Shown piece by piece: positions 7,071-53,995 of a stretch of 64,000 nucleotides of DNA. Made by a program: the position numbers and the translations under genes. The stretch lies in NCBI RefSeq assembly GCF_000092405.1, contig NC_014220.1, forward strand, positions 1,922,001 to 1,986,000, in the 5' to 3' direction. A model generated the notes under the pieces. It saw only the letters and a program-made list of their open reading frames with translations. It had not been told where the DNA came from and made no database searches. The stretch comes from Syntrophothermus lipocalidus DSM 12680. Its GTDB lineage: Bacteria; Bacillota; Syntrophomonadia; Syntrophomonadales; Syntrophothermaceae. The first letter of the stretch is position 1. Each line of letters begins with the position of its first letter.

Positions 7071-7208
7071 GCCTCTAACTTCCACATTTCCAACTTCCTA
7101 CTTCCGGCCTCCAACTTCTATTCTGGCTTCCTACTTCCTACTTCCGGCCTCTAACTTCCATTCTGGCCTCCAACTTCCAACTTCCTACTTCCAACTTCCA
7201 ACTTCCAT
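7071..7208. repeat. Degenerate CTTCCAA heptamer array
   Basis: About 20 units of a 7-bp word (CTTCCAA, CTTCCTA, CTTCCGG and variants) all in one orientation. It begins exactly at the stop codon of the neighbouring hydrolase gene: TGAGAATGGAAGTTGG on the coding strand contains that stop. Same style as the GAATTAA arrays elsewhere in the window but a different word. Confidence 0.8.
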
Positions 7209-12429: not shown

Positions 12430-12480
12430 CCTCAGTTAACTCCCTCTCTATAAATTCTTCGACGCCGATTAACCCCGAAT

Positions 12481-12541
12481 TCACTCTTCATTCTTCATTC
12501 TTCATTCTTCATTCTTCATTCTTCATTCTTAATTCTCAATT
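12481..12541. repeat. GAATGAA heptamer array at the end of prfB
   Basis: Roughly eight units of ATTCTTC/GAATGAA in one orientation. It overlaps the last codons of prfB: GGAATTGAGAATTAAG encodes the final Gly-Ile-Glu-Asn and stop. Confidence 0.85.
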
Positions 12542-13645
12542 CCCGCTCCGTACTTCTGCCCCAGATACGCGGTAATAAAATCGTTAATGTCTCCGTCCAG
12601 GACAGCATTAACGTTGCCTACCTCGAGCCCTGTACGGTGGTCCTTCACCAGGGAAAACGGGTTCAATACGTAAGTCCTTATCTGGTTGCCCCAAGCTATC
12701 TCCTTGTACTCCCCTTTCAGCTTCTGCAGGCTCTCTTCCTGCTCTCGCTGTTTCAGTTCGTACAATTTAGCCCGCAATATCTTCATGGCCGCTAGTTTGT
12801 TGGCGTACTGGGACCTCTCGTTCTGGCACTGCACCACGATGCCTGAAGGCAGGTGCGTGATACGTACGGCAGAGTCCGTCTTGTTCACGTGCTGGCCCCC
12901 GGCACCCCCGGCGCGGAAAGTATCTATACGCAGGTCATCGGAAGAAATGGTAACCTCCACATCATCCTGAATTTCCGGCAGAACTGAAACCAAGGCAAAA
13001 GAAGTATGCCTTCTTCCCGAGGCGTCGAAGGGAGATACCCTGATAAGTCTATGCACCCCAGCCTCGGCTCTCATCTTGCCATAGGCGTATTTCCCTTTTA
13101 TCAGCAAGGTCACGCTCTTAATCCCTGCTTCTTCCCCCGGCAGGTAATCCATTATGTCAACCTCATACCCGTTATCCTCAGCCCAGCGGGTATACATGCG
13201 CAAAAGCATCTCCACCCAGTCCTGGGCATCGGTACCTCCTGCCCCGGCGTGCAGAGAAACGATAGCATTGCTGTCGTCGTGTTCTCCCTTGAACATGATA
13301 GAGAGTTCGTATTCGCGAAACCGGCGGTTAAGCCGGGCCAACTCAGCCGCTGCTTCGCGGTAAAGCTCCTCGTCTTCCTCGGCCTCCGCCAATTCCAAAA
13401 GTGCTGAGATGTCCTCTATCTCGCGGACAAGTGATTCATAACTGTCTACCCGTTCCTTGAGCCCGCTCATCTCCTTAACGACCTTCTGGGCCTCCTGATT
13501 GTCGTCCCAAAAACCGGGTTGGCAGGTTTTGTCCTCCAGTTTTTTTATCCTGTGCTTCAGTCCCTCTACGTCAAAGAGAACCTCCGATTTCTTCAAGTCT
13601 CTTTTTAATTTCGCAAGCCAGGTTTAAGGCGTTTTCTGAAAGCAT
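12529..13645 (-). CDS. prfB: Peptide chain release factor 2, expressed by programmed +1 frameshift
   Basis: RF2 recognises UGA and UAA and releases the peptide through the GGQ loop, visible as [19 protein letters not shown]; the UGA-reading SPF motif is present as SPFDASGRR. The coding sequence is in two frames. A short first frame from ATG 13645 (AGGAGG upstream) runs to an in-frame TGA at 13573-13571; ribosomes slip +1 at CTT-TGA-C to continue as DVEGLKHRI. The total is about 371 residues. Taking the second frame alone from TTG 13596 would lose the normal N-terminus. The C-terminal GIEN and stop are made of an intergenic heptamer repeat. Confidence 0.97.
13571..13585 (-). promoter_or_regulatory. 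prfB autoregulatory +1 frameshift site
   Basis: Internal Shine-Dalgarno-like GGAGG (13585-13581), four bases, CTT (13576-13574), stop TGA (13573-13571), then C. This matches the known RF2 feedback site, where low RF2 leaves UGA unread and promotes slippage. Confidence 0.95.
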
Positions 13646-33815: not shown

Positions 33816-33822
33816 GGATCAA

Positions 33823-33960
33823 TTAAGAATTAAGAGTTTAGAATGAAGAATTATATCAGGAACGTGGAACTAAGTTATTGAAGGTGGAGAATTAAGAATT
33901 GGTTTGCGTTCTGGCACTGATTGTTAATTCTTAATTCTCAATTCTTCATTCTTAATTCCT
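33823..33960. repeat. Inverted GAATTAA heptamer arms in the fliC leader
   Basis: Left arm 33823-33857 (GAATTAAGAGTTTAGAATGAAG and similar) and right arm 33922-33958 (TTAATTCTTAATTCTCAATTC and similar) around a 65-bp loop. Heptamer period with substitutions. Confidence 0.8.
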
Positions 33961-34075: not shown

Positions 34076-34137
34076 CGAACTTTCTATGGCATTTTTCGCG
34101 CGATTGCATTCCGTTTCTCGCGATTTCCTTCTTTTGA

Positions 34138-34290
34138 GCCACAGATTTTTGAAAGACGCAGACCCTCACGACACCTGATGGCGTCACCACTAGAGAATGA
34201 AAATGCCGGTGCATTTTTAGGGCAGATTGACGCAGACGTTATTATTAATTCTTTTATTTTAATTTATTCCTGCGTCGTTCTGCGTCTAAA
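34138..34290. repeat. CACAGAT/GACGCAGA arms with a CACTAGAGAATGAAAATG copy
   Basis: GCCACAGATTTTTGAAAGACGC at 34138 faces TCCTGCGTCGTTCTGCGTCT at about 34268-34287. Between them is a full GACCCTCACGACACC...GCGTC-ACCACTAGAGAATGAAAATG copy (34159-34205). Confidence 0.65.
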
Positions 34291-35819: not shown

Positions 35820-35912
35820 TAAATTAAGAATTCAGAATGCAGAATTAAGAATTAATTTCCTAATTCTTCATTCTTCATTCTTCATTCTTAATTCTTAACT
35901 CTTAATTCCTTT
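35820..35912. repeat. Inverted heptamer arms overlapping the csrA 3' end
   Basis: Left arm 35820-35855 and right arm 35862-35912 of GAATTAA-type words, loop only a few bases. The right arm encodes the last seven residues and stop of csrA. Confidence 0.85.
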
Positions 35913-36615: not shown

Positions 36616-36716
36616 GAATTAAGAATTAAGAATGCAGAATTAAGAATTACCGTTTGGTCGCACCCGTCGCCAATTCTTAATTCTAAATTCTGAATTCTCA
36701 ATTCTAAATTATGTTA
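36616..36716. repeat. Inverted heptamer arms between DUF6470 and fliW
   Basis: Left arm 36616-36649, right arm 36671-36716, loop about 21 bases. The right arm provides the TAG stop of the DUF6470 gene. Confidence 0.85.
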
Positions 36717-37274: not shown

Positions 37275-37740
37275 GGAATTAAGAATTCAGAATTCAGAAT
37301 TAAGAATTTAGAATTAAGGATGCAGAATTTGGAATTAGGAGTCGTTTTTCTTGGATGTTTTGACGATGGCGGTTAGGATCTTGCGAAGCTCTATCGCATC
37401 CCTCAGTATGTCATTGGCATACTTCTGCTCGAGCCAGCTGCTGTCACGCAGAAGCCTCAACCAGTATATCGTCTCCCGTGTTTCTTTCAGAGCTATCGTC
37501 ATCTTAGCTATGAAATCCTTTTTCGAGTGAGCCGCTACGGCTTCCTCTACGTTAGCGCCTATACTGGTTCCCGAACGCAGCACCTGTTTCGCTATCGCAT
37601 AGTCCCTTCTTTCTCTCACCAAATACTGGTACACGCGGGCAACCCGCAGGGCGAAACGATAGCTCTTGTCCTGGATGAGATTATCCCTGTTCATCTAATC
37701 CTTCACTCATTCATTCTTCATTCTTAATTCTCAATTCTAC
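37275..37740. mobile_element. Heptamer-armed element carrying a four-helix-bundle gene
   Basis: Inverted GAATTAA-type arms at 37275-37338 and 37706-37740 enclose a single gene (37335-37694). Other copies of the same arms in this window have loops of 5-65 bases and no gene. The whole unit separates DUF6470 from flgL, which are adjacent in B. subtilis. Structure seen directly; mobility inferred. Confidence 0.6.
37335..37694 (-). CDS. Four-helix-bundle protein (S23/bAvd-like)
   Basis: 119 aa, all helical. SYRFALRVARVYQYLV, VLRSGTSIGANVEEAVAAHSKKDFIAKM and ETIYWLRLLRDSSW are the conserved signatures of the S23 intervening-sequence/four-helix-bundle family, whose Avd relatives assist diversity-generating retroelements. 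No reverse transcriptase or template repeat is seen here. Stop codon TAA abuts one heptamer arm and the ATG lies 12 bases from the other, with GAAGGATTAG as ribosome site. Confidence 0.88.
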   Translation of the reverse strand: MNRDNLIQDKSYRFALRVARVYQYLVRERRDYAIAKQVLRSGTSIGANVEEAVAAHSKKDFIAKMTIALKETRETIYWLRLLRDSSWLEQKYANDILRDAIELRKILTAIVKTSKKNDS

Positions 37741-38635: not shown

Positions 38636-38769
38636 TAATGAAGAATGTAGAATTAAGAATGCAGAATGAAGAATTGAACCATCACGCATTACTCTGATCA
38701 TCCCATCAGACCGTCTTCCCGATCGACAACCCCCTCATTCTTAATTCTTAATTCTCAATTCTTAATTCA
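38636..38769. repeat. Inverted heptamer arms between flgK and flgL
   Basis: Left arm 38636-38676, right arm 38735-38769, loop about 58 bases with no gene. The right arm begins inside the flgK stop (TGAATTAAG). Confidence 0.85.
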
Positions 38770-41391: not shown

Positions 41392-41410
41392 CCCAATCCC
41401 TCCCTCTCTT

Positions 41411-41450
41411 CATTCTTCATTCTTAATTCTTAATTCTCAATTCTTAACTC
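41411..41450. repeat. Single heptamer arm upstream of flgN
   Basis: About five ATTCTTA/ATTCTCA units in one orientation only; the opposing arm is missing. Confidence 0.75.
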
Positions 41451-53878: not shown

Positions 53879-53995
53879 CAATTTAGAATTCAGAATTAAG
53901 AATGAAGAATTGAGAATTAAGGGCTGAGAGTAAAGACCTGCAACGAGGAACAATTCTCAATTCTTAATTCTTCATTCTGCATTCTTAATTCTAAG
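53879..53995. repeat. Inverted heptamer arms between flp and the prepilin peptidase gene
   Basis: Left arm 53879-53921, right arm 53951-53995 of GAATTAA/GAATGAA-type words, loop about 30 bases without a gene. Confidence 0.85.

Follow-up and report, generated by a model that had tools for sequence, protein, structure and literature searches.

A widespread candidate class of mobile hairpins in which an S23 gene is bracketed by inverted tandem heptamers

REP/BIME palindromes and the RAYT transposase together form the REPtron. Intervening sequences (IVSs) in 23S rRNA that carry an S23 open reading frame are found in Leptospira and in Coxiella, where tandem GACAGAT heptamers lie ahead of the S23 ORF and production of the S23p protein has been reported to be improbable (PMC4990558). 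The S23 family resembles Avd, a protein of diversity-generating retroelements, DGRs (PMC10053308). Tandem heptamer repeats have been described in several bacteria, including GGGAATC of Xanthomonas, with more than 180 sites per genome and at least 70 inverted pairs, the heptamers often forming convergent pairs directly after ORF ends, and GGGGA(T/C)T of Nostoc (both PMC4692102), TAACTGA of Beggiatoaceae (PMC4679880) and the heptanucleotide repeats of Geobacter (PMC2700814). S23 IVSs and heptamer repeats are thus already known, each separately; S23 is mentioned neither in PMC4692102 nor in PMC4679880, and no paper linking S23 genes to heptamers was found in the open-access literature that we searched.

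The window analyzed here is a stretch of 64,000 nucleotides (bases 1922001-1986000) of the closed genome of Syntrophothermus lipocalidus DSM 12680 (2,405,559 bases). Within a flagellar operon, outside the 23S rRNA gene, it contains a unit (positions 37276-37738) in which a pair of heptamer arms, forming terminal inverted repeats, encloses a single ORF. This ORF (37335-37694, minus strand, 119 aa) matches PF05635 with an E-value of 8.8e-25, which is its sole Pfam match, as well as TIGR02436, in each case exceeding the curated cut-off, and its product is predicted to form a four-helix bundle (pLDDT 94.8), in agreement with the initial annotation, in which exactly one S23/bAvd-like four-helix-bundle gene had been placed between such arms. 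The upstream arm (37710-37738, minus strand; GAATTGAGAATTAAGAATGAAGAATGAA on the coding strand) contains the stop codon of flgL (TIGR02550; 37737-38621, minus strand), and the downstream inverted arm (37276-37342, plus strand) contains the stop codon of S23 itself; beyond the latter arm lies a DUF6470 gene (PF20074; 36704-37261, minus strand).

Foldseek matched the predicted fold to solved S23 structures and, more weakly, to Avd (4dwl and 8ub7 chains, with Avd chains of DGR ribonucleoproteins included; TM 0.72-0.82, E 0.1-0.5). This Avd-like fold suggests that the arms are recognized as RNA or single-stranded DNA. Given the resemblance of S23 to the Avd subunit of DGR ribonucleoproteins (PMC10053308) and the presence of the units in transcribed operons, a unit might move by reverse transcription of its hairpin RNA, with the Avd-like S23 protein serving a reverse transcriptase in trans. 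However, a search of this hairpin-rich genome for the RVT_1 domain detected none, so host reverse transcription, one of the routes suggested initially, is disfavored here; even considering that the enzyme could have been lost or be external, we regard this reading as very improbable.

Inverted GAAT[T/G]NA arrays were sought by a periodic heptamer profile scan, with Markov shuffles of the window as the control; none of the 6 shuffles contained an array reaching the scan threshold. All six places where inverted GAATTAA-type arrays had initially been noticed were recovered, and the five array pairs that had been described as empty are gene-less hairpins that fold far more strongly than shuffled sequences (z -5.0 to -9.1). 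These hairpins are located between fliD and a flagellin gene (33821-33853, plus strand, with 33920-33958, minus strand), at the stop codons of csrA (35822-35855 with 35857-35908), DUF6470 (36616-36649 with 36672-36710) and flgK (38637-38677 with 38735-38768), and at 53880-53936 with 53952-53994. By coordinate comparison, the stop codons of csrA, DUF6470 and flgK, like those of flgL and S23, fall within an arm. The profile scan also found single heptamer arrays on the minus strand at 12480-12542 (GAATGAA/GAATTAA) and at 41407-41450. Numerous GAATTAA-type arrays occur beyond the window, elsewhere in the genome, and the rRNA operon 2 spacer contains two such hairpins that are missing from operon 1. 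In the operon 2 spacer (L035:6446-7243), GAATTAA and GGAAGTT hairpins flank two tRNA genes. A further short repeat set (GACGCAGA / CTGCGTC), at 34120-34290 in the gap between fliD and the flagellin gene, resembles repeats that lie beside PDDEXK_3 units of relatives (see below).

The genome encodes three S23 genes, and the two beyond the window unit both lie within 23S rRNA genes. The candidate view that the rRNA-borne copies lack arms was rejected: arms exist, as inverted arrays of a heptamer unlike that of the window unit, namely GGAAGTY (...GGAGGTTGGAGGCCAGAGGTAGGAAGTAGG ... CCGACTTCCGACTTCCGGCCTCCAACTTCC). GGAAGTY is also dispersed in the genome: the window has arrays at 7085-7206 (minus strand), the rRNA operon 1 spacer contains the heptamer as well, and it recurs at 500114-500289. 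The 23S rRNA S23 genes of three relatives have inverted heptamer arms as well, of the GACAGAG type in two loci (L081 and L085) and of the CGTCAGA type in the third (L096). Both 23S rRNA genes of the S. lipocalidus genome (L001:2612-2857 and the equivalent place in L003) additionally contain a second insertion that encodes an 82-aa GIY-YIG protein (PF01541); in L001, this insertion has 17-bp perfect inverted ends (CCGGCACTCAATGGTCT) and no heptamers.

The association between bundle genes and arms, a lack of which had been named in the initial annotation as a refutation, was examined in a first sample of 80 S23 loci from many phyla, obtained by an S23-alignment scan of GTDB genomes, and in a second sample of 258 unique S23 genes, after the addition of Bacteroidota, plasmid and relative loci; the sampling is skewed to high-scoring relatives. 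In the flanks of the 80 loci, tandem repetition is confined to period 7 and to 14, its multiple; the mean run is 21.8 at period 7 and around 5 when the period is 4-6 or 8-13. Arrays with a score of 12 or more were present in 64/80 S23 flanks versus 12/142 distal windows shifted 1.2 kb from the S23 loci (p = 5e-28); the shuffles and the distal windows rule out chance or AT-richness as the source of the arrays. The median inverted complementarity is 21 for the two arms of the same locus, compared to 11 for swapped partners, 10 for distal windows and 12 in direct orientation. Among the 258 unique genes, period 7 was found in 139 and period 8 in 19, all other periods except the multiple 14 being represented by 0-4 genes, and where both arms are periodic (n = 133), 6-7 of 7 bases agree in 70% of the cases versus 5% for arms from different loci. 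Direct repetition was ruled out because the match requires reverse-complementing one of the arms. No clear periodic array was detected around 71/258 genes, many of which have degenerate inverted arms. Some S23 genes, mostly from Bacteroidota, have octamer arms (CTTAGAAA, CAAAGGTT, AACTGGTC) in place of heptamers (L364, L303, L300, L359 and L236 are among these loci). Gene-less hairpins made of the heptamer of an S23 gene are often dispersed elsewhere in its genome. Thus, bundle genes and arms are strongly linked across many phyla, the arms being inverted, particular to each gene and inherited together with it, and we consider it virtually certain that S23 genes are associated with heptamer arms.

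The S23 family was matched in 298/395 sampled Bacteroidota genomes, often in multiple copies. In viral contigs, S23 relatives were looked for and none was confirmed; among phage records, S23 was found in only two, both unannotated.

Among 61 genomes of the order, arrays and S23 co-occur (p = 0.001), and three relatives (G003, G040 and G054) have arrays with no S23 gene, which under the explanation that we favor requires loss of the gene or incomplete assembly. These three genomes, the common occurrence of arrays with no S23 gene nearby, and a Nostoc arm whose start coincides with a CAATTCG that the target already had are the kind of evidence that would be expected if the arrays had arisen by themselves, as simple repeats or as ancient palindromes, with S23 merely preferring to insert there, as IVSs do at the tips of 23S rRNA hairpins. 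Under such a scenario, it is hard to see why the heptamer follows the S23 protein rather than the genome, why S23 genes of one genome differ in their heptamers, and why two empty sites were found that contain no arrays; we therefore regard it as very improbable.

The average arm heptamer in the 258-gene sample is A-R-T-K-N-N-N. In genomes with several S23 genes, nearly each gene has its own heptamer, shared by both sides (GGTCAGT, GCAAGTT, GGTTAGG and AATGCAA are among those of one genome), and up to ten S23 genes with differing heptamers were observed in a single genome. Between genomes, heptamer similarity correlates with S23 protein identity (Mantel r 0.46, 0/500 permutations), increasing from 0.45 at less than 20% identity to 0.56 at 45-50%, 0.68 at 60-70% and 1.0 at more than 90%, a correlation that could in part come from joint inheritance of the unit. 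That the host genome sets the heptamer was ruled out, given that S23 pairs from the same genome barely exceed the similarity predicted by their protein identity.

Covariation between residues and bases was analyzed in 88 genes with an A-R-T-K core (residues in window numbering). Asn5 is paired with A at base 2 in 46/46 genes, whereas with non-Asn residues at this position base 2 is mostly G (32/42, one of the 42 being a gap). When the tested columns were left out of the tree construction, 5-6 changes of position 5 and base 2 coincided versus 0.7-0.8 expected, the strongest signal among all columns. For base 4, covariation is moderate, and the top column is Arg73, with 13 coinciding changes versus 5.2 expected. 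Reading of base 5 by E50/A54 was considered and rejected: the contingency tables are favorable but the coinciding tree changes are not above chance. In 18 additional S23 places, by our reading of the arrays, base 2 is A in 4/4 Asn genes, and among the Ser genes, it is G in two and mixed in one. Judging from these sequence comparisons, it is likely that S23 would specifically recognize its own heptamer. S23 has been described as a homopentamer (Lin 2006, as cited in PMC4990558), and the S23 entries 2RLD and 2GSC of the PDB contain five chains each. The length of the arms peaks at 4.5-5.5 units, which together with the residue-base covariation suggests that one heptamer corresponds to one S23 subunit. 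In the literature that we searched, we came across no mention of the gene-by-gene specificity, of the residue covariation or of arms with about five units.

Two of the published orphan heptamers, GGGAATC and TAACTGA, can be traced to S23 genes. A GGGAATC array was found in 1/369 sampled gammaproteobacterial genomes, and the one S23 gene of this genome, apparently frameshifted, is flanked by inverted GGGAATC arrays and adjoins a biotin carboxyl carrier-like gene; the heptamer and the gene context are the grounds on which we call this genome Xanthomonas-like. Rotating AGTTATC and taking the complement gives TAACTGA; AGTTATC is the heptamer that makes up the arms of S23 genes in one Nostocales and one Shapirobacteria genome. 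An S23 gene on a Planktothrix plasmid has AATCCCC arrays on its flanks, which we take to be reminiscent of the cyanobacterial STRR repeats.

The separation of flgL from DUF6470 by the S23 unit, pointed out in the initial annotation, is confirmed by comparison of the orthologous junctions in relatives of the same order: the two genes have no S23 between them in 29/29 relatives examined, and the gap is shorter than 50 bp in 12/24 measured ones. In one relative (G014), this gap contains a gene-less array of the CCTTACC type, which is the heptamer of the stand-alone S23 genes of the same genome. In two others (G040 and G045), the gap contains an ORF with other inverted ends, of the AATCCGCGTG and TTCAGTGTC types; the G045 copy (L072:2059-2564), on which the family was tested, belongs to PDDEXK_3 (PF13366) and has a counterpart in G040 (L056:2020-2514). 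The PDDEXK_3 units may constitute another class of hairpin-bracketed genes, parallel to the S23 units.

Empty sites, for which a search in precise form was suggested in the initial annotation, were found for other S23 units. In two cyanobacterial plasmids, an S23 gene with AAGTAAA-type arms is located between cas2 and cas1, whereas in two related plasmids cas2 and cas1 are adjacent and heptamers are absent there. In these Nostoc and Anabaena plasmid CRISPR loci (L217 and L218), the S23 unit is antisense and the end of cas1 is replaced. A DNA cytosine methyltransferase gene is split by S23 with CAATTCG arms on a Nostoc plasmid and uninterrupted in related plasmids; this insertion has a left arm that starts at a CAATTCG that pre-existed in the target. 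Neither site is clean: about 65 and about 330 bp of target are replaced, and no target-site duplication was seen in the two pairs. Because of this target loss and the absent duplication, these are not clean transposition products, and the divergence of the pairs (14-26%) implies old events. Accordingly, the combination of a clean empty site and a target-site duplication that characterizes insertion sequences and MITEs was not observed. Nevertheless, S23 units in all probability reach new places over evolutionary time, although not via textbook transposition.

Movement bears directly on another explanation, under which S23 is a non-mobile RNA-binding regulator that binds the stem around its own message and treats the dispersed hairpins as a regulon, affecting mRNA stability or termination. 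Arms at stop codons and in transcribed operon gaps, gene-specific recognition and strong RNA hairpins all fit such a role. Conserved sites would be expected in this case, whereas the sites of the units differ between related genomes; moreover, units split a methyltransferase gene, replace the end of cas1 and occur within 23S rRNA, and one genome can have ten S23 genes with different heptamers. This explanation appears unlikely to us, although a regulatory role is compatible with mobility.

The explanation that we favor, with a probability of roughly 0.7, is that the S23 units are IVS-like hairpin elements, the pentameric S23 protein of which recognizes its own heptamers, and that the gene-less hairpins are their non-autonomous relatives. 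These elements would represent a very widespread hairpin class in which an S23 ORF is preceded by an arm of tandem heptamers and followed by an inverted one. The S23 homopentamer would bind the arms, one heptamer per subunit, probably as RNA or single-stranded DNA, and may help host processes to insert the unit. The whole unit would behave selfishly and come to rest in the gaps between genes, in many cases at a stop codon, and the gene-less hairpins would be derivatives mobilized by S23 in trans. Of the autonomous and non-autonomous mobile forms initially envisaged, movement over evolutionary time is supported, whereas the designation of the S23 units as autonomous is our inference. Insertion might proceed via host DNA processing of a hairpin or single-stranded DNA, with microhomology and local deletion, with no nuclease or reverse transcriptase encoded by the element; we put this route forward only tentatively. 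Overall, recognition appears well supported, by the covariation, movement moderately so, and the chemistry of transfer hardly at all. In a broader generalization, for which we see about even odds, most bacterial tandem heptamer repeats, and some octamer repeats, would be traces left by a single ancient class of selfish hairpins. Their only gene would encode a pentamer that reads one unit per subunit through a residue-base code, and they would spread themselves and their gene-less copies while encoding neither a transposase nor a reverse transcriptase, with the 23S rRNA IVSs as the special case in rRNA.

Several implications follow for known families. The very common, uncharacterized S23 family gains a candidate function, namely recognition of its own heptamer repeat; the orphan heptamers of Xanthomonas and Beggiatoaceae gain an owner and are united with the 23S rRNA IVSs; and a protein-nucleic acid code becomes testable on two proteins with solved structures (2RLD and 2GSC).

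To our knowledge, no described mobile element combines an S23-like gene as its sole gene with cognate tandem-repeat arms, and for this reason we judge the class to be new. The element is not as entirely new as the initial annotation proposed, given that the S23-bearing 23S rRNA IVS has an identical architecture in a different location, and if movement proves rare, the class would count as an IVS variant. Like the 23S rRNA IVSs of Leptospira and Coxiella, the window unit consists of an S23 ORF within stem-forming terminal inverted repeats; it differs in its non-rRNA site, its arm heptamer and the many gene-less copies in intergenic gaps. The orphan repeats GGGAATC and TAACTGA share with the S23 units the tandem heptamers, here found as S23 arms. 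With Avd of DGRs, the window S23 shares a subunit fold and family resemblance (PMC10053308), but its genome has no reverse transcriptase and the unit is therefore not a DGR. The REPtron comes close in organization: its palindromes are dispersed, inverted copies of them flank a gene, and the palindrome families are gene-specific, all of which is found here as well; in place of the HUH/Y1 tyrosine transposase, however, the S23 unit encodes a 119-aa helical protein whose only Pfam match is PF05635, with no match to a transposase family, and its arms are built of tandem heptamers.
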